53,983 bases of DNA from Chitinophagaceae bacterium (GTDB lineage Bacteria > Bacteroidota > Bacteroidia > Chitinophagales > Chitinophagaceae): assembly GCA_013140985.1 (NCBI GenBank), contig JABFRU010000027.1, positions 1 to 53,983 on the forward strand. The letters run 5' to 3'. This document shows positions 28,218 to 49,082 of this stretch, one piece after another. How positions within the stretch are numbered: position 1 is the first letter of the stretch; the number at the start of each line of letters is the position of its first letter. The notes beneath the pieces are model-generated. The model had not been told where the DNA came from and made no database searches. It saw only the letters and a program-made list of their open reading frames with translations. The translations under genes and the position numbers were made by a program.

Positions 28218-29630
28218 TTACTTATCATGTTTTTTGAGCTTTCCCACCATATTTTCAGGCCTCACCCATTCATCAAACTGGTTGGGAGTTACATAACCAA
28301 GTTTTACAGCCATTTCTTTTAAAGTTGTTCCTTGCTTATGCGCTTTCTGTGCGATTTCAGCAGCTTTATAATAACCGATCTTAGTATTCAATGATGTTAC
28401 CAGCATCAGACTGTTGTCAACATGCTTTTTAATATTGGCTTCAATAGGTTTGAGGCCAACAGCACATTTATCATTGAAGGAAACACAGCCATCGCCGATC
28501 AATCTTGCACTGTGTAGGAAATTATATATCATTACCGGTTTAAAAACATTTAATTCAAAATGACCAGTAGCGCCACCGATATTTATTGTAACATCATTCC
28601 CCAACACTTGTGCAGCGATCATCGTCAGTGCTTCACATTGCGTTGGATTTACTTTGCCCGGCATGATGGAAGAACCTGGTTCATTATCGGGAATAAATAT
28701 TTCACCAATGCCACTTCTTGGTCCGGATGAAAGCATCCGGATATCATTAGCTATCTTCATTAAACTGACCGCCACAGTTTTCAATGCGCCATGTGCTTCC
28801 ACAATAGCATCATGTGCAGCGAGAGCTTCAAATTTATTTTCTGCAGTTTTAAATGGAAGGCCGGTAAGGTTTGCAATTTGTTTAGCGACATTTTCAGCAT
28901 AACCGGGAGGAGTGTTGATGCCGGTGCCAACCGCAGTTCCCCCGAGAGCCAGTTCACTTAAATGCGCCAGCGAATTCTTTATTGTTTTTAGTCCATGATC
29001 CAATTGAGAAACATACCCGCTGAATTCCTGTCCGACAGTTAACGGGGTGGCATCCATGAAATGAGTACGACCGATCTTCACCACTTTCATGTATTGCTTA
29101 CTCTTCTTCGCCAGTGTATCCCTTAATTTTTTTATACCCGGGATCGTTGTCCCGGTCAAAATTTGATAAGCAGCAATATGCATCGCTGTCGGAAAAGTAT
29201 CATTGGATGATTGTGATTTATTAACATCATCGTTAGGGTGCAGAAATTTTTCTTTATCGGTTAGCCTGCCACCTTTCAAAACATGACCCCGGTAAGCGAT
29301 CACTTCATTCACATTCATATTGCTTTGCGTTCCGCTCCCGGTTTGCCAAACTACCAGGGGAAAGTAATCATCGAGCTGACCTTTTACTATTTCATCACAA
29401 ACCTTTCCTATCAGAACAGATTTATTTTTTGGTAATACACCGGCTTCAAGATTTGTGACAGCGGCTGCTTTTTTCAAATACGCAAATGCCCGGATGATCT
29501 CTTTGGGCATTTTGTTAATGTCAACTGCTATTTTAAAATTATCAATGCTGCGCTGTGTTTGGGCTCCGTAATAGGCGTCAGCGGGGACTTTTACTTCGCC
29601 CATGGTATCTTTTTCGATCCGGTATGACAT
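28218..29630 (-). CDS. fumC: class II fumarate hydratase
   Basis: The 470-residue, iron-independent fumarase converts fumarate to L-malate in the citric acid cycle. The superfamily signature [17 protein letters not shown] is at about 317–333; the substrate-binding [13 protein letters not shown] and the [11 protein letters not shown] loops and the [16 protein letters not shown] segment are all present. Length is typical. The start is the Met of [16 protein letters not shown]. The same signature occurs in aspartase and argininosuccinate lyase, but the full pattern favours fumarase. Confidence 0.94.
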
Positions 29631-34815: not shown

Positions 34816-35592
34816 CTATTTACCTGAGAAAGTTGCTTTTCTTTTTTCCAAAAAAGCAGATACGCCTTCTTTCATATCATCGGTATCAAAGCATCCTCCG
34901 AATTCTTTTATTTCAAGATCATATCCATTAACGGATTCATCAAATACAGCATTGGCTGTTTTGATACAACCCGCCACAGCCAGCGGAGCTTTGGAATTGA
35001 TGATAGTTAGAATTTTTTTTGCTTGCCCTAATAATTCCCCGTCTGTGGTTACATAGTTTACCAATCCTAATTGTTTGGCTTCATTCGCATCGATCATTCC
35101 GGCGCTCATTAATAGTTCCATGGCTTTCCCTTTGCCGATGAGTTGAACAAGACGTTGTGTGCCACCATAGCCAGGTATCAAACCTAGGTTCACTTCAGGT
35201 TGCCCAAACTTTGCATTATCAGAAGCTATTCTGAAGTGACAGGCCATTGCCAGCTCACAACCACCACCCAATGCAAAACCATTCACGGCAGCAACAATGG
35301 GTTTGGATGAATTCTCGATCCTGGCAAATATATCTTGACCTTTTTTTGCCATCGCCATAGCCTGCTCTTTATTTAATCCATTGAATTCAGAAATATCTGC
35401 GCCGGCCACAAATGCTTTAGGCCCTGCACCCGTTATGATGACAGATTTTATTGCCGCATCAGGTTCAATTTCATCAAGCGCCCTGTTTAAATCATTGAAC
35501 ACATCTTTATTAAGGGCATTCAGCTTGTCGGGCCGGTTGATGGTAATAGTGAAAATATTATTCTCAAGCGAAGTGAGCAGGGTTTGGTACAT
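34816..35592 (-). CDS. enoyl-CoA hydratase/crotonase family protein
   Basis: A 258-residue cytosolic enzyme that hydrates trans-2-enoyl-CoA, or a closely related short-chain version. The crotonase pattern is complete: TINRPDKLNALN, the oxyanion-hole segments KAFVAGADISEF and ALGGGCELAMACHFRIA, and catalytic Glu residues in FGQPEVNLGLIPGYGGTQRL (both Glu positions occupied). Length is standard. A decayed relative of its first 60 residues lies at 45,370–45,630, fused to a different gene. Likely roles are fatty acid or amino acid degradation. Confidence 0.9.
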   Translation of the reverse strand: MYQTLLTSLENNIFTITINRPDKLNALNKDVFNDLNRALDEIEPDAAIKSVIITGAGPKAFVAGADISEFNGLNKEQAMAMAKKGQDIFARIENSSKPIVAAVNGFALGGGCELAMACHFRIASDNAKFGQPEVNLGLIPGYGGTQRLVQLIGKGKAMELLMSAGMIDANEAKQLGLVNYVTTDGELLGQAKKILTIINSKAPLAVAGCIKTANAVFDESVNGYDLEIKEFGGCFDTDDMKEGVSAFLEKRKATFSGK

Positions 35593-43196: not shown

Positions 43197-44255
43197 ATGA
43201 AAACAAGTTCCCGGCATAATAACTATGCGTTTAGCCGCCTGGCTATGAATACAGCAGTAATCATAACTGCTTTATTTTTTTTAAGCTGCAAAAAAACAAA
43301 AACAGACCCGCCACCGGCATCAGGCCCTAAATCAGTTTACATTGGTGGTTATGAAGATGGTTCGGCGAACACAGTTGCTAAAACCTGGAAAGATGGAACA
43401 GTATCGGTACTTTCCGATGATACAAAAAATGAAGCCGTAAATGGAATATCCGTGTCAGGCACTGATGTATATGCCGGAGGCTATCAGTCCGGGGTTGTAA
43501 ACACAGCAAAAATTTGGAAGAATGGTGCAGCTACCAATATTACTGATGGCACAAAGAATGCAATTATCTATGGTATTTATGCAGCAGGAACTGATCTATA
43601 TGCGGCCGGGTTTGAATATAATGGTACACGGAATGTTGCTAAGGTTTGGAAAAACGGTATAGCTACCAGTCTTACAGATGGGACGAATGCCGCATTGGCA
43701 TACTCAGTTTTCGTTACAGGCACAGATGTATATGTCTGCGGTACAGAGTTTGTTGGCGGAGGCAGTAGCAGCGGTGTGATAAGGCTTTGGAAGAACGGGG
43801 TATTGCAAACAATTACAGGAGGTACCAGCAGCGCTGCAGGGTATTCTGTATTTGTTTCAGGCAGTGATGTATATATAGCAGGCGTTGAAGTGATAGCCGG
43901 AAAGCAACAGGCAAGGTATTGGAAAAACGGGTCGCCAGTTGTGGTTTCCGATCCTACAAAAACAGCAGAGGCCCGCTCCATATTTGTTTCCGGAAGCGAT
44001 GTTTATGTGGCAGGCTACGAATCTGCATCGGGTCCTGTTGCAAAAGTTTGGAAAAACGGTATTGGTACAGACCTTGGGGGAGGTACGTTTTCTTCAACAG
44101 CTTTCTCAGTGGCGGTGGACGGAACCGATGTGTATGTATGCGGATTTGAAAACTCAGCAACAAAACGATTTGCCAAACTTTGGAAAAACGGCGTAGCTAC
44201 CAACATTACAGATGGAACAAAAAATGCTGCAGCTTATTCAGTTGTTGTAAAATAA
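43197..44255 (+). CDS. lipoprotein with seven-bladed WKNG propeller
   Basis: A 352-residue predicted lipoprotein. A hydrophobic stretch ends in a lipobox FLSC and is followed by the basic, Pro-rich KKTKTDPPPASGP linker. The body contains seven repeats of about 45 residues, each with a VxGxDVYVxGYE start and a (A/V)KxWKNGxxTxLTDGT end, giving one seven-bladed propeller. The start is the ATG at 43197, or the internal ATG at 43242 (MNTAVIITALFF) that directly precedes the signal core. The next gene follows two bases after the stop. Function unknown. Confidence 0.7.
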   Translation: MKTSSRHNNYAFSRLAMNTAVIITALFFLSCKKTKTDPPPASGPKSVYIGGYEDGSANTVAKTWKDGTVSVLSDDTKNEAVNGISVSGTDVYAGGYQSGVVNTAKIWKNGAATNITDGTKNAIIYGIYAAGTDLYAAGFEYNGTRNVAKVWKNGIATSLTDGTNAALAYSVFVTGTDVYVCGTEFVGGGSSSGVIRLWKNGVLQTITGGTSSAAGYSVFVSGSDVYIAGVEVIAGKQQARYWKNGSPVVVSDPTKTAEARSIFVSGSDVYVAGYESASGPVAKVWKNGIGTDLGGGTFSSTAFSVAVDGTDVYVCGFENSATKRFAKLWKNGVATNITDGTKNAAAYSVVVK

Positions 44256-44257
44256 AA

Positions 44258-45322
44258 ATGTTTACAAAGGCTATCAATTTGTTTGTCTCCTTAATGGCTA
44301 CCGGGCAAATTTTTTGCCAGGACAAGATTGTTGAATTTTATAAAGGATTACAATTAAAGGGCAGCGTAAAATCAGTGAAACAAAGGATATATGAGGTGAA
44401 CGCCGTGGACTCTCTGACTGCCACTAATATAGTTGCTAAGTACAGGACTACAAATGCCCGTATGGAAGTGATTAAAGGAGAAGAATCGGGTGATGTATTC
44501 TACTATGTGCATATTAATAAAAAGGGGTTGCCCGACAGTACTACATTTCTGAATGAAGAAGGAAGACAATATAATTTTACCCTGTATGAGTATGATGAAA
44601 AGGGAAATATCACCCGTGCTTATGGAAAAGACGCACTTACATCCATAAATGTGGAGGTGGACAAACGTTATAATTACCAGTACGATACTGCCGGCAATAT
44701 TGCCGAAAAGGTTGCCTTCATATACGATAAACAAATATGGTATGAAAAATACAGCTATACTTTTTTTTCAGGCAATGGGATAAAAAAGTTGACTATTAAA
44801 AGAGATTATGATAAAGAAAAATTGGTGCACACACAGCATTTCAACTATGATGAAGACGGTCGTATAGTAGAATATAAAAGAAACCTGAGCGGCGAAGAAT
44901 ACCTGAAAGGCGAAAAATACCTGGTTGACAGTTCAGTGCGTTATATAAAGAATTGGGAGTACGATGCGAAAGGGAGGTTGATATACGAGAAAGAAAATAT
45001 TATTGTACAGGCTAACCGGATTATGGAAATAAGGTATGACTATAGTAAAGGAACTCGTAGTGCTAAATTAACCAATGAAGACGGCACCCGGTTATATGCT
45101 TACGATTCACTGGGTAAAATTTTATCGTACAAGTTGATAAACAGTGATGGATTTCTGCTAAGAGATTTTTCTTTTACTTACGAGATGGATGAAAACGACA
45201 ATTGGGTAAGACGCTATTGGTTTGATAATATTGATAACAGGCAGCGATTTTGCACTGAAAGGGAAATTGAGTATTATAAACAATGGGAACCGGAGAAGCC
45301 AGAGCATTGTCTTTTACAATAA
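44258..45322 (+). CDS. exported protein with YD/RHS-like repeats
   Basis: A 354-residue protein with a signal peptide (MFTKAINLFVSLMATGQIFCQ). The mature part holds at least six YD-type motifs spaced about 30–40 residues apart: YEYDEKGNITRAYG, YQYDTAGNIAEKV, FNYDEDGRIVEYK, WEYDAKGRLIYEKE, YAYDSLGKILSYK, TYEMDENDNWVRR. Such repeats form beta-sheet wraps in RHS/teneurin-like proteins, but here there is no toxin domain or autocleavage motif, so it is more likely a structural or binding surface protein. The start at 44258 is chosen because it opens the signal peptide; it follows the propeller lipoprotein by two bases in one operon. Confidence 0.65.
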   Translation: MFTKAINLFVSLMATGQIFCQDKIVEFYKGLQLKGSVKSVKQRIYEVNAVDSLTATNIVAKYRTTNARMEVIKGEESGDVFYYVHINKKGLPDSTTFLNEEGRQYNFTLYEYDEKGNITRAYGKDALTSINVEVDKRYNYQYDTAGNIAEKVAFIYDKQIWYEKYSYTFFSGNGIKKLTIKRDYDKEKLVHTQHFNYDEDGRIVEYKRNLSGEEYLKGEKYLVDSSVRYIKNWEYDAKGRLIYEKENIIVQANRIMEIRYDYSKGTRSAKLTNEDGTRLYAYDSLGKILSYKLINSDGFLLRDFSFTYEMDENDNWVRRYWFDNIDNRQRFCTEREIEYYKQWEPEKPEHCLLQ

Positions 45323-45369
45323 TTTGTAATAGTTAAGGGTTATATGAGATACGGGGCTAAAACTGACGG

Positions 45370-45630
45370 TTAACGGCAACCCATTCTTTTATTCACACGC
45401 AATTTTGCCAGTCGGTGTACACACTGCTAATAATTTCCCCATCCTCATTTTTTTCATTGTCTTCTTATCATGCTCCGGAATAATACCGCCACCGGTTATA
45501 ATAGCTGACCTTATTTCTGCATTGTTTTCAATTTCATTCAATGCTTTATTGAGTTCATTTCAATACTTCCTGGTTCAATGCATTCAATTTATCAGGTCTG
45601 TTAATAGTGACAAAGCAGAGTATTGTACAT
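45370..45630 (-). pseudogene. chimeric pseudogene: crotonase 5' part joined to B12-binding mutase 3' part
   Basis: Reading the reverse strand from 45630, ATG and MYNTLL match the crotonase start (MYQTLL at 35592). About 28 bases are then missing with a frame change, and the crotonase body resumes as VTINRPDKLNALNQEVL. One extra base (near 45560) shifts the frame to NELNKALNEIENNAEIRSAIITGGG. From the shared ITGGG point the sequence turns into the methylmalonyl-CoA mutase B12 domain: GGGIIPEHDKKTMKKM, then RMGKLLAVCTPTGKIA, against [16 protein letters not shown] and [16 protein letters not shown] in the intact gene at 46386–46793. The mutase part matches 17 of 27 residues over GGGII...CTP. A TAA occurs near 45392 with faint similarity beyond it. 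No product is expected. Confidence 0.8.
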
Positions 45631-45713: not shown

Positions 45714-45859
45714 CGGCCGGTGGTAGTGTATCAGTTTCAATTTTGTTTCCCACAAAGACACTAAGAACACAAAAAAGGCATATTGATCTTAACCACTTTG
45801 TGGTTTTTGTGTCTTTGTGGGATGCCTTTATTTTTCAAAATGAGACACTACTCGGCCGG
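45714..45859. repeat. nested inverted-repeat element, MITE-like
   Basis: The element is about 146 bases. The outer ends carry CGGCCGG and GTAGTGT, matched on the other side by ACACTAC and CGGCCGG. Inside is a perfect 14-base pair of arms, TCCCACAAAGACAC (45748–45761) and GTGTCTTTGTGGGA (45809–45822), and in the centre AACCAC/GTGGTT around TTT (45791–45805). The CACAAAGACAC words belong to a low-complexity type that is widespread in environmental bacteria. It has no coding capacity. Confidence 0.6.
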
Positions 45860-45894
45860 TTATTCTGAAAAAATGATTCTTTGTAAAAAAAATC

Positions 45895-46389
45895 ATGGCA
45901 ACCTATTATCCTCTTGCTGCCGGTAACGAATGGCAATACAAACAAAAAGACGGAAGCACTTATGTCAACAAAGTGACTGCAGCCAATGGCAACGAATACC
46001 AGATGCACAACAGTGCTGCCAATACCAGCAGTACAATGAAATTGGAAGGACAGAAATATATCATGGATGCACTGGAAGCTGGTAATTTCCAGCAATGGCT
46101 GGGCAATGACCTGAACAATGGCGATAGCTGGGAAATAAAGTTCAAAGCTAATGGACTTGATTGTATCCTTATCATGACCGTAAAAGATACCAATACAACC
46201 AAGGAAGTTGAAGGCAAGACTTACAACAATGTTTTATTCATTGAAGCGGAAAATAAAATTGTAATGAACGGAACCATCATGCCGCTCAATTTTTTTACGC
46301 AATATTATTATGCAGATGGAGTAGGGCTTGTGCTGACTACCTCTTCAGCGGGAGATATTCATGCATTGGTTTCTTACAAGCTTATTTAA
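45895..46389 (+). CDS. protein of unknown function
   Basis: A 164-residue protein without an obvious signal peptide at the chosen ATG. It begins [20 protein letters not shown], a pattern seen in small beta-rich Bacteroidota proteins that are usually exported (FYPLxxGNxWxY), and continues with alternating strands to [14 protein letters not shown]. The export signal may have been lost when the upstream repeat element arrived; the 35 bases upstream offer no in-frame start. Its TAA overlaps the TAA of the convergent mutase gene in TTAA. Function unknown. Confidence 0.6.
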
Positions 46390-46793
46390 AAAGAACGGTG
46401 TTCCTTCACCCAGGTAGTAATGTATTCGCTGATCTCAGAGGTGGGAGTGCCGGGAGCAAATAGTTTGCCTACACCCATTTTATTGAGCGTTTGCATATCA
46501 TCTTCAGGAATGATACCGCCACCGGTAAGCAATACATCATTCATGCCTTTTTCTTTCATGGCATCAGCCACTTTTGGGAAAACGGTCATGTGGGCACCGG
46601 AGAGGATGCTGATACCGATCGCATCCACATCTTCCTGCAGGGCGGCATTCACCACCATATCAGGTGTTTGGCGAAGGCCTGTATAGATCACTTCCATGCC
46701 GGCATCTCTTAGTGCTGTAGCAATAACTTTAGCGCCGCGGTCATGGCCATCGAGCCCAACTTTTGCTACCAATACCCTGATAGGTCTTTTCAT
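46386..46793 (-). CDS. methylmalonyl-CoA mutase, cobalamin-binding subunit/domain
   Basis: A 135-residue stand-alone B12-binding domain. It has the DxHxxG motif (Asp15-Gly-His17-Asp-Arg-Gly20), where His17 is the lower cobalt ligand, then [16 protein letters not shown] and [12 protein letters not shown], which line the nucleotide tail of cobalamin. In classical MCM this is the C-terminal domain; here it is separate, as in the split mutases (such as isobutyryl-CoA or ethylmalonyl-CoA type enzymes and some archaeal MCM). The catalytic subunit is not in the window. gltX ends 9 bases upstream of its start, so the two are probably cotranscribed. Confidence 0.9.
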
Positions 46794-46802
46794 ATTTTAA
46801 AA

Positions 46803-48326
46803 TTAACCAAATACTTTTAAAGCATTTTGTATGCGAAGTATCGTTTCATTTTTGCCCAATAGCTCAGCAATATTAAATACAGGCGGGCCAAATTTTCCGC
46901 CCACCAGCATTATCCTGAATGGTAATTGTAATTCGCCGGGCTTGATATTTTGCAAGGCGGCCATTTTTTTAAATGCATCTTCAATAACTGCAGATTGCCA
47001 ATTTTCCAGGGCATTTATTTCTTCGATAAATAACTCAAAGAATTTTTTCTTCTCTTCATTCCATTTTGGTTTCACTGCATCCACATACCATTGCTCAGGC
47101 GTTTTGAAAAAGAAAGAAGACTGTTGCACAAAATCAGGAAGCAGTGTGCAACGATCTTTTACAAGCTCAATCACTTTATACAGTAAAGAAATATCAGAGA
47201 CAGGGATATCATTTTTTTCTAACAGGCTCTTAACTTCAAACCTCAAACCCGAAACTTCAAACTTTTTTATCCATTCATGGTTGAACCACTTTGCTTTTTC
47301 ATAATCAAATTTAGCCCCGGCGCTATGTATTCTTTCCATTGAAAATTTTTCGATCAGCTCTTCTTTGGAAAAAATTTCCTGTTCTGTTCCGTCATTCCAA
47401 CCAAGCAAGGCAAGCAGGTTGATAAATGCTTCGGGTAAAAATCCTTTTTCTTTAAATCCTTCTGTCAGTTCATTGGTTTTTGGATCGGTCCAGTTCATCG
47501 CAAAAACCGGAAAGCCATATTTGGCGCCATCTCTTTTACTTAACTTACCATTCGGTCCTAATATCAATGGAAAATGTGCCCATTGCGGCATATTCTCAAT
47601 GCCAAACAAATATTTCCAAAGTAAAATATGAACAGGGGCAGAGGGCAGCCATTCTTCGCCACGGAAAGCATGGCTTATTTGCATCAAATGGTCGTCAACA
47701 ACCACAGCCAAATGATAGGTTGGCATCCCATCTCCCTTCAATAATACTTTATCATCTACAATGGAAGTATCAAAACTTACTTTACCACGGATCATATCAA
47801 TAAAGGAAACGGTTTCTTTTTCCGGCACCTTGATCCGGATAACATGTTTTGTCCCGGCATCCAGCAGTGTTTTTACTTCATCAGGCGGAAGGGTCAGTGA
47901 GTTCCGCATTTTCATACGGATAGTATGATCATATTGTGGTGATGGGTTTTGCTCTGTCTTATAATCATGTCGCATTTTTTCCAATTCTTCTGTTGTATCA
48001 AATGCATAGTAAGCAAAACCATCTTTTACCAACTGCTCTGCATATTTCCGGTAGGTTTCTTTTCTTTCGCTTTGGCGATATGGGCCATAATTGCCTTCAT
48101 GCTGAACACTTTCATCAGGTTCCAGTCCGCACCATTTTAGTGTATCGAAAATATATTCTTCGGCCCCGGGCACATAGCGGCTTTGGTCAGTGTCTTCAAT
48201 CCGTACCAAAAAATCGCCCCCATGTTTTTTGGCAAATAAATAATTGTACAGAACGGTTCTCACACCACCCAGGTGCAAACCACCCGTAGGACTGGGAGCA
48301 AACCGGACCCGGACTCTTTTTGACAT
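46803..48326 (-). CDS. gltX: glutamyl-tRNA synthetase
   Basis: A 507-residue class I synthetase that charges tRNA-Glu. The HIGH-type motif is HLGG (18–21) in FAPSPTGGLHLGGVRT and the KMSKS-type motif is KLSKR at 261–265. The start is ATG at 48326 (MSKRVRVRFAPSP); the open frame extends 25 residues further but overlaps the divergent promoter. A low-complexity segment (47231–47265) encodes KFEVSGLRFEVKS in the anticodon-binding half and looks like a repeat taken up into the coding frame. A TATCTTTG box lies four bases before the ATG. Confidence 0.95.
   Translation of the reverse strand: MSKRVRVRFAPSPTGGLHLGGVRTVLYNYLFAKKHGGDFLVRIEDTDQSRYVPGAEEYIFDTLKWCGLEPDESVQHEGNYGPYRQSERKETYRKYAEQLVKDGFAYYAFDTTEELEKMRHDYKTEQNPSPQYDHTIRMKMRNSLTLPPDEVKTLLDAGTKHVIRIKVPEKETVSFIDMIRGKVSFDTSIVDDKVLLKGDGMPTYHLAVVVDDHLMQISHAFRGEEWLPSAPVHILLWKYLFGIENMPQWAHFPLILGPNGKLSKRDGAKYGFPVFAMNWTDPKTNELTEGFKEKGFLPEAFINLLALLGWNDGTEQEIFSKEELIEKFSMERIHSAGAKFDYEKAKWFNHEWIKKFEVSGLRFEVKSLLEKNDIPVSDISLLYKVIELVKDRCTLLPDFVQQSSFFFKTPEQWYVDAVKPKWNEEKKKFFELFIEEINALENWQSAVIEDAFKKMAALQNIKPGELQLPFRIMLVGGKFGPPVFNIAELLGKNETILRIQNALKVFG
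47231..47265 (-). repeat. low-complexity repeat in frame in gltX
   Basis: On the coding strand the words GTTTGAAGTT, TCGGGTTTGAGG and TTTGAAGTT succeed each other, giving FEVSGLRFEV. The two FEV copies are separated by SGLR. The region is less conserved than its surroundings in this family, and the word structure resembles the low-complexity arms found in the window's gaps. Confidence 0.55.
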
Positions 48327-48330
48327 GCGG

Positions 48331-48362
48331 CAAAGATAGCGAGGAGAAGGTACAAGGAACAA
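48331..48362 (-). promoter_or_regulatory. gltX promoter with almost no leader
   Basis: On the reverse strand, TTG (48362–48360) and TATCTTTG (48338–48331) are 21 bases apart. The -7 box ends four bases before the ATG at 48326, so the transcript should be leaderless or nearly so. Confidence 0.55.
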
Positions 48363-48367
48363 GCAGT

Positions 48368-48375
48368 TATCTTTG
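48368..48375 (+). promoter_or_regulatory. -7 box of the deacetylase gene
   Basis: TATCTTTG ends five bases before the ATG at 48381. It is divergent from the gltX promoter and nearly its mirror image across a 54-base gap. Confidence 0.5.
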
Positions 48376-48380
48376 TAACG

Positions 48381-49082
48381 ATGACATTCATTGCACCACA
48401 TTATCAGAAAGCAAAGAAGAAAGCATTGTTTCCTTTTTTAAGGAAAGACAGGTTCCTTGTAAAAACCCCCTGGTGGTTAAAGAAATTATATTCCGGCTGT
48501 TTATGGGATATGCCAGTGAAAGAAAAAAAACTGTACCTCAGTTTTGACGATGGGCCTCATCCAACTATTACACCTTTCGTTTTGGATGAATTGAAAAAAT
48601 ACAATGCAAAAGCTACTTTCTTTTGTATCGGTGATAACGTAAAAAAATTCCCGGACACCTATCAGCAATATATAGAGGAAGGCCATGCTGTCGGCAATCA
48701 TACCCAGCATCATATTAACGGGTGGAGGACAAAAGATGCTGTTTACTTAAATGATATCAAAGAAGCTGCAGACGTCATTAATAGCTCATTATTCAGACCA
48801 CCTTATGGAAGAATGAAAAGAGCACAAATGAGAAAATTACTTAAGGGAGATAAAAAAATGGTCATTGTAATGTGGAATATCCTGGCTGGTGATTGGGTGC
48901 CTGATCTGCCGCCTGAAAAATGCTATCAAAGGATAAAAAGAAGAATTTCCGCCGGAGACATAATTGTACTTCATGAAAGCGATAAGGCATGGGAAAGGAT
49001 GAGCTACTGTCTTCCCTTGCTTCTTAAAGAATTTTCCGAACAAGGTTTCAAGTTCGATGTCATCGGCCTATCTAAGCAATGA
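48381..49082 (+). CDS. polysaccharide deacetylase (NodB-like)
   Basis: A 233-residue carbohydrate esterase family 4 protein that removes N-acetyl or O-acetyl groups from cell-wall or surface polysaccharide. The core motifs are LSFDDGPHPTITP (about 53–64, the metal Asp in DD), HTQHH in VGNHTQHH, RPPYGRMKRAQ and VLHESDK at the end. The N-terminus (MTFIAPHYQKAKKKALFPFL) is basic and hydrophobic and may act as a weak anchor. Divergent from gltX. The exact substrate is unknown. Confidence 0.88.
   Translation: MTFIAPHYQKAKKKALFPFLRKDRFLVKTPWWLKKLYSGCLWDMPVKEKKLYLSFDDGPHPTITPFVLDELKKYNAKATFFCIGDNVKKFPDTYQQYIEEGHAVGNHTQHHINGWRTKDAVYLNDIKEAADVINSSLFRPPYGRMKRAQMRKLLKGDKKMVIVMWNILAGDWVPDLPPEKCYQRIKRRISAGDIIVLHESDKAWERMSYCLPLLLKEFSEQGFKFDVIGLSKQ

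Follow-up and report, generated by a model that had tools for sequence, protein, structure and literature searches.

A decayed crotonase–mutase chimera in a Chitinophagaceae genome and its possible origin at a repeated gene boundary

How does the start of a crotonase gene come to be joined to the end of a B12-binding mutase gene? Such a joint lies on the minus strand of the window (the whole stretch of DNA analyzed, 53,983 nt), in a fragment of 274 bases that runs from a crotonase ATG at 45630 to a mutase stop codon at 45357. The original prediction had located it at 45370–45630, which is correct in place and slightly too short, as it stops before the mutase stop codon. The fragment, its parts and the intact genes of the two families are as follows.

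45357..45630, minus strand: whole chimeric pseudogene fragment, crotonase ATG to mutase stop codon (profiles and alignment)
45485..45630, minus strand: crotonase half, about codons 1–57 (DNA profile match and alignment)
45357..45499, minus strand: mutase B12-domain half, C-terminal ∼46 codons including the stop (DNA profile and alignment)
45486..45499, minus strand: joint, 14 nt, overlap of both family alignments, ITGGG
46386..46793, minus strand: intact resident mutase B12-binding gene (M), TIGR00640 methylmalonyl-CoA mutase C-terminal domain, E 1.3e-51
34816..35592, minus strand: intact resident crotonase (C), enoyl-CoA hydratase family, Pfam ECH_1, E 4.8e-68

The chimera is real. We built one DNA profile per family, from 31 intact crotonases and from 26 intact mutase genes, and excluded the fragment from both. 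The crotonase (enoyl-CoA hydratase) profile matches the fragment at 45616–45485 (E 2.5e-26) and the mutase B12-domain profile matches it at 45499–45361 (E 2.3e-13), so that two significant matches to different families lie next to each other on one strand, in a disrupted frame. Both families had been named from the reverse-strand reading, and both assignments stand. The two matches overlap by 15 nt, solely at ITGGG, in agreement with the predicted junction in a shared I-T-G-x-G motif. At E up to 1, each profile has two matches in the window, the fragment and the intact gene, the latter at the position where an intact relative had been predicted. Pairwise alignment of the fragment with the resident genes gave scores of 72.5 and 77.0, compared to 36.0 and 34.5 for the best of 500 letter shuffles each. 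By blastn, the mutase half matches the resident mutase at 75% over 71 bases; plain blastn returned no match between the crotonase half and the resident crotonase. In translation, the crotonase part reads MYNTLL, VTINRPDKLNALNQEVL and ELNKALNEIENNAEIRSAIITG, and the mutase part reads GGGIIPEHDKKTMKKMRMGKLLAVCTPT followed, in a shifted frame, by IKEWVAVNRQF and a stop. Searched against Pfam, the 55 residues that are open across the joint matched no family, and NCBIfam gave sub-threshold matches only, to both families (mutase E 0.003, crotonase E 0.02) and to others.

Could the joint be an artifact? The genome is a draft of 83 contigs, in which an assembly chimera or binning error is conceivable, but the fragment lies inside a 54-kb contig and both halves are decayed. 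Moreover, the halves differ from every gene found in the same genome, so the fragment is no false join of two genes present there. We consider an artifact extremely improbable.

Alignment revealed three frame breaks. The crotonase half has lost a net 26 nt in its N-terminal part (near 45615) and gained one base near 45559; the mutase half has lost one base near 45400. A deletion and a one-base insertion had been predicted. Stops are present in all three frames. Because its frames are broken, the fragment is a pseudogene, and judging from the sequence it most likely yields no working protein now. Metabolism need not be affected, as both parent families are represented by intact genes. A 56-codon frame does stay open across the joint, as it might if a short fusion protein were under selection, but this frame begins inside the crotonase half, without the crotonase start, and nine of the 33 mutase residues do not occur in relatives. 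We regard this idea, together with gene conversion between the resident genes, as highly unlikely.

Are the resident genes the parents? Compared with C, the crotonase half shows 64.2% identity over 120 aligned columns, and compared with M, the mutase half shows 59.0% over 139; exact runs in common with these two genes reach at most 11 and 14 nt. These values rule out recent duplication and recent gene conversion, and by this measure the fragment was not copied recently from the resident pair. Gene conversion, which had been proposed as an alternative, should leave a tract of high identity, and the runs of 11 and 14 nt contain none. The original prediction of recombination at microhomology followed by decay thus holds for the chimera, the short shared stretch and the decay, but not for the resident genes as recent direct parents. 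Among 66 intact crotonases and 52 intact mutases, the sequences nearest to the crotonase half come from family members outside the genus (G376, 80.0%; G068, 79.2%; G260, 77.5%), with G003 the best inside the genus (75.0%), and the best match to the mutase half is in G012 (67.6%).

Phylogenetic tests gave a mixed answer. A sister relationship between the crotonase half and C was disfavored at 0.05 in two of four tree tests. In a tree of 67 rows and 120 columns, the p-AU value was 0.317. It was 0.188 when the rows were restricted to the genus (22 of the 36 genus crotonases); 0.040 when named rows were added to the same 22 (22 of the 80 named loci); and 0.0084 on a full-length backbone, which comprised these 22 genus crotonases (more divergent or small-genome ones were left out) and nine of 16 out-of-genus loci, chosen because they resembled the fragment. 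A group made up of the fragment, C and the G017 crotonase was not rejected (p-AU 0.112 on the full-length backbone; 0.188 in the set with the genus-only and named-row trees). These data hint weakly that the crotonase half may descend from a gene other than C; as two of the four tests do not reject it, an older descent from C may also apply. For the mutase half, a sister relationship with M had a p-AU of 0.056, and the two are not clearly separated. We also considered whether C is itself a foreign replacement and dropped the idea: C groups with the G017 gene at 95/85 in one full-length tree, and at 82/59 or without resolution in others. An rpoB tree left the genome itself (G000) unresolved among G012, G029, G005 and others.

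The two halves have decayed unequally. Only one of 40 residues in the crotonase half is unseen in relatives (66 intact crotonases), compared to nine of 33 in the mutase half (52 intact mutases; Fisher p 0.004 between halves). In simulations, 10 random changes to a crotonase leave one or no unseen residue in 0.6% of draws, and the mutase half fits ∼15 to 20 changes. End branches in the full-length-backbone tree are 0.20 for the crotonase half and 1.37 for the mutase half; the crotonase branch is 0.36 in the 120-column tree, and 0.68 and 0.36 in the genus-only and named-row trees, respectively. This pattern suggests that the mutase part lost constraint first.

Why these two genes? The answer appears to lie in gene order, which the original prediction overlooked. 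In relatives, M is often the immediate upstream neighbor of C, and the run gltX-M-C-fumC lies on one strand. The outer two genes, tentatively named from their sequences, have counterparts in the window.

46803..48401, minus strand: gltX-like gene, presumably glutamate-tRNA ligase, upstream neighbor of M (synteny in relatives)
28218..29630, minus strand: fumC-like gene (g470), which we take to be fumarase, downstream neighbor of C in relatives by synteny

We examined 42 genomes of the genus, the present one included; 35 have both genes and 29 have both on one contig. In 29/29 of these (again counting the present genome), the two genes share a strand and M precedes C. The spacing is 12–45 bp in 19 genomes and 3–20 kb in the other 10, among them the present one (10.8 kb). 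Of 80 loci from a named collection, taken with 5-kb flanks, 22 contain both genes, in the order M then C in every case; the two sets overlap, some genomes being in both. The regions covered were those of all nine separated relatives and of seven genomes from the 19 with adjacent genes, plus G026 and G015. Given this order, a joint of crotonase start to mutase end is the expected product of a second copy of the boundary, and no fusion of unlinked genes is needed; ectopic fusion of that kind is rejected on the same grounds. For crotonase 5' to be joined to mutase 3', the boundary has to be present twice, at least in part. What looks like an odd fusion of two families turns ordinary once the order in relatives is known: the parents are neighbors there, and the start of the downstream gene is joined to the end of the upstream one, as in the joint of a tandem duplication.

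No M-C-M-C arrangement was found in any genome. At E 1e-60, 36 of the 42 genus genomes have exactly one crotonase match, and at E 1e-20 the mutase match is single in 36 of 37 genomes. In the exception, G035, the two mutase matches lie on separate contigs and probably come from a single gene that the assembly divided. In the M-C gaps of the nine separated relatives no scar was detected, and only intact genes matched at E up to 1. Comparison of the 34.0–47.0-kb region with the window by blastn showed no second full M-C tandem copy, only the 75% mutase match and unrelated repeats.

The joint itself falls where the two genes have a short sequence much alike. In this region, M reads ACCGGTGGCGG and the G068 crotonase reads ACCGGTGCCGG, a difference of one base in 11; C and M match at 8/11 bases. 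Other instances of the joint were not seen, as far as our searches reach. Among the best matches listed for 394 genomes of the family, only the present genome gave a protein match spanning it, and the same was true for DNA at E 1e-8, with two candidates scored per genome; within these limits, the same joint, sought in related genomes as had been suggested, was absent from the other 393. It was found in only the present one of the 42 genus genomes. Pattern searches gave 193 matches in the GTDB contig collection and 32 in viral contigs, none of which was confirmed; for plasmids, no match across the joint was listed. No genome of the same species, or above about 90% identity, was encountered in these searches. 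One caveat here is that all these searches favor close copies, and hence a diverged joint could escape them. A limited literature search, judged by titles and the opening lines of abstracts, revealed nothing on such a joint, which does not prove its absence in print.

In the window, 0.76 kb separates the fragment from M and 9.8 kb separates it from C. It is flanked by two open frames.

45895..46389, plus strand: 164-aa gene without assigned function, between M and the fragment
44180..45322, plus strand: open frame adjoining the fragment on the side away from M, weak RHS-repeat match (E 4.2e-6)

Among the 41 other genus genomes, only G030 has a relative of the 164-aa gene, likewise within the M-C gap. 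The G030 gap contains relatives of a histidine kinase, a LytTR regulator and the 164-aa gene in the same order as in the window, without the fragment. Homology to G030 by blastn ends with the LytTR gene (43046) and restarts at 45882, shortly ahead of the 164-aa gene. The intervening ∼2.8 kb, with the fragment and two genes, has no such counterpart in G030. Either gain of this stretch in the present genome or its loss in G030 could account for the difference.

We favor the following history, partly inferred, at about even odds (probability roughly 0.5): the fragment was left by the collapse of a repeated mutase–crotonase boundary. A second, diverged mutase–crotonase copy, probably introduced as DNA from a related bacterium, would have come to lie beside the resident one (M1-C1-M2-C2). 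The redundant M2 would have decayed first, and a deletion between C1 and M2 at a short shared sequence would then have produced the chimera (c1'/m2'). Further insertions must be assumed to place the fragment at its present distances from M and C. Given the unequal decay, an account with a second M-C pair is the simplest, and a single event acting on intact genes fits less well.

A simple tandem duplication in place would take the fewest steps. Here, a resident unit of ∼313 bp (mutase 3' end, spacer and crotonase 5' end; 313 bp is calculated with an assumed 13-nt spacer) would be repeated by way of the short sequence common to both genes to give M-c/m-C, followed by decay of both halves and flanking insertions. 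The adjacency and order of M and C predict exactly such a joint, and descent from the resident crotonase went unrejected in two of the four tree tests. However, this route predicts even decay of the two halves if the copy is old, and likeness to the resident genes if it is recent, and neither is seen. In addition, remnants of the boundary were not recognized on either side: no spacer or mutase 3' end upstream of the fragment ATG, and no spacer with crotonase start downstream of its stop. The flanks show no repeat of the resident boundary (blastn gave the 75% mutase match only; the spacer was judged by eye). We think this route rather unlikely.

Homology-facilitated illegitimate recombination is a third and still less likely candidate. 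DNA from a relative would pair by homology at one end and join by microhomology at the other, linking the crotonase start of one bacterium to the mutase end of another. The microhomology end is seen at the joint, the M-C gap is variable in the genus (12 bp to 20 kb), and the G030 gap shows window-gene relatives in conserved order. Such events have been proposed for other loci (PMC5361080). Against this, no donor above 82% identity was found in the 394 family genomes (two candidates scored per genome), the placement of the halves is weak, and one join alone leaves the unequal decay unexplained.

Duplication and deletion joints arise at short repeats between neighboring bacterial genes. The fragment resembles these in having one joint at ∼7–11 nt of near identity, between genes that are adjacent on one strand, with decay thereafter. 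It differs in that its parent copies do not resemble the resident genes and its halves have decayed unequally. For arrays of type VI secretion system (T6SS) effectors, homology-facilitated illegitimate recombination has been proposed (PMC5361080; PMC3240628); remnant gene pieces beside inserted genes at a variable locus are common to those arrays and to our case, but the fragment derives from metabolic genes, with no identified donor or intermediate. In experiments with Streptococcus pneumoniae, transformation is reported to yield merodiploids with tandem duplications of ∼100–900 kb (PMC3784515). A transient second copy beside the resident one is also what the collapse of a repeated boundary would need, although nothing of that size is shown for the fragment. 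Overall, the mechanism seems ordinary, and the fragment looks like a real but dead scar of a local duplication or an imported copy.

By its unequal decay, a 274-base scar may order past events. Tentatively, one can imagine that it records a passing state, in which two M-C pairs of different species lay side by side, brought about by DNA from another Chitinophagaceae genus; that the mutase was lost before the joint formed; and that the M-C boundary is a repeated entry point for foreign DNA in the genus. The M-C gap may be a recurrent landing site, and its variability may interest those who study where foreign genes land in Chitinophagaceae.

Several observations were made along the way. In eight of the nine separated relatives (L098, L099, L100, L102, L103, L105, L106 and L107), M is followed by a three-gene operon (circularly permuted ATP-grasp, Alpha-E and transglutaminase-like), named from the copies in G030. 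We considered this operon as a former neighbor and dropped it, as the present genome has no ATP-grasp match; that search had no positive control, and its empty answer alone shows nothing. Defence-type genes occupy the M-C gap in two relatives. The gap of G011 (L106, 6586–11532) contains type II CRISPR Cas9, Cas1 and Cas2; that of G001 (L102, 703–6272) contains HerA-like and NurA-like genes, together with a gene that partially matches an Argonaute model (E 6.2e-18). The same gap in G001 (L101, 2989–9105) also includes a gene of 2038 aa in which a glycosyl hydrolase 94 domain was recognized. A contig titled as a Streptomyces griseus MAG (L179) contains a Chitinophagaceae-like gltX-mutase-crotonase run and is probably from a mislabelled or contaminated bin. 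Finally, an imperfect inverted repeat around CACAAAGACACTAAG lies beside the fragment, at 45748–45822. The pattern CACAAAGACACNAAG has 32 matches in the genome, compared to 0 for the reversed control, and some of these are close inverted pairs; it is a dispersed palindromic repeat.
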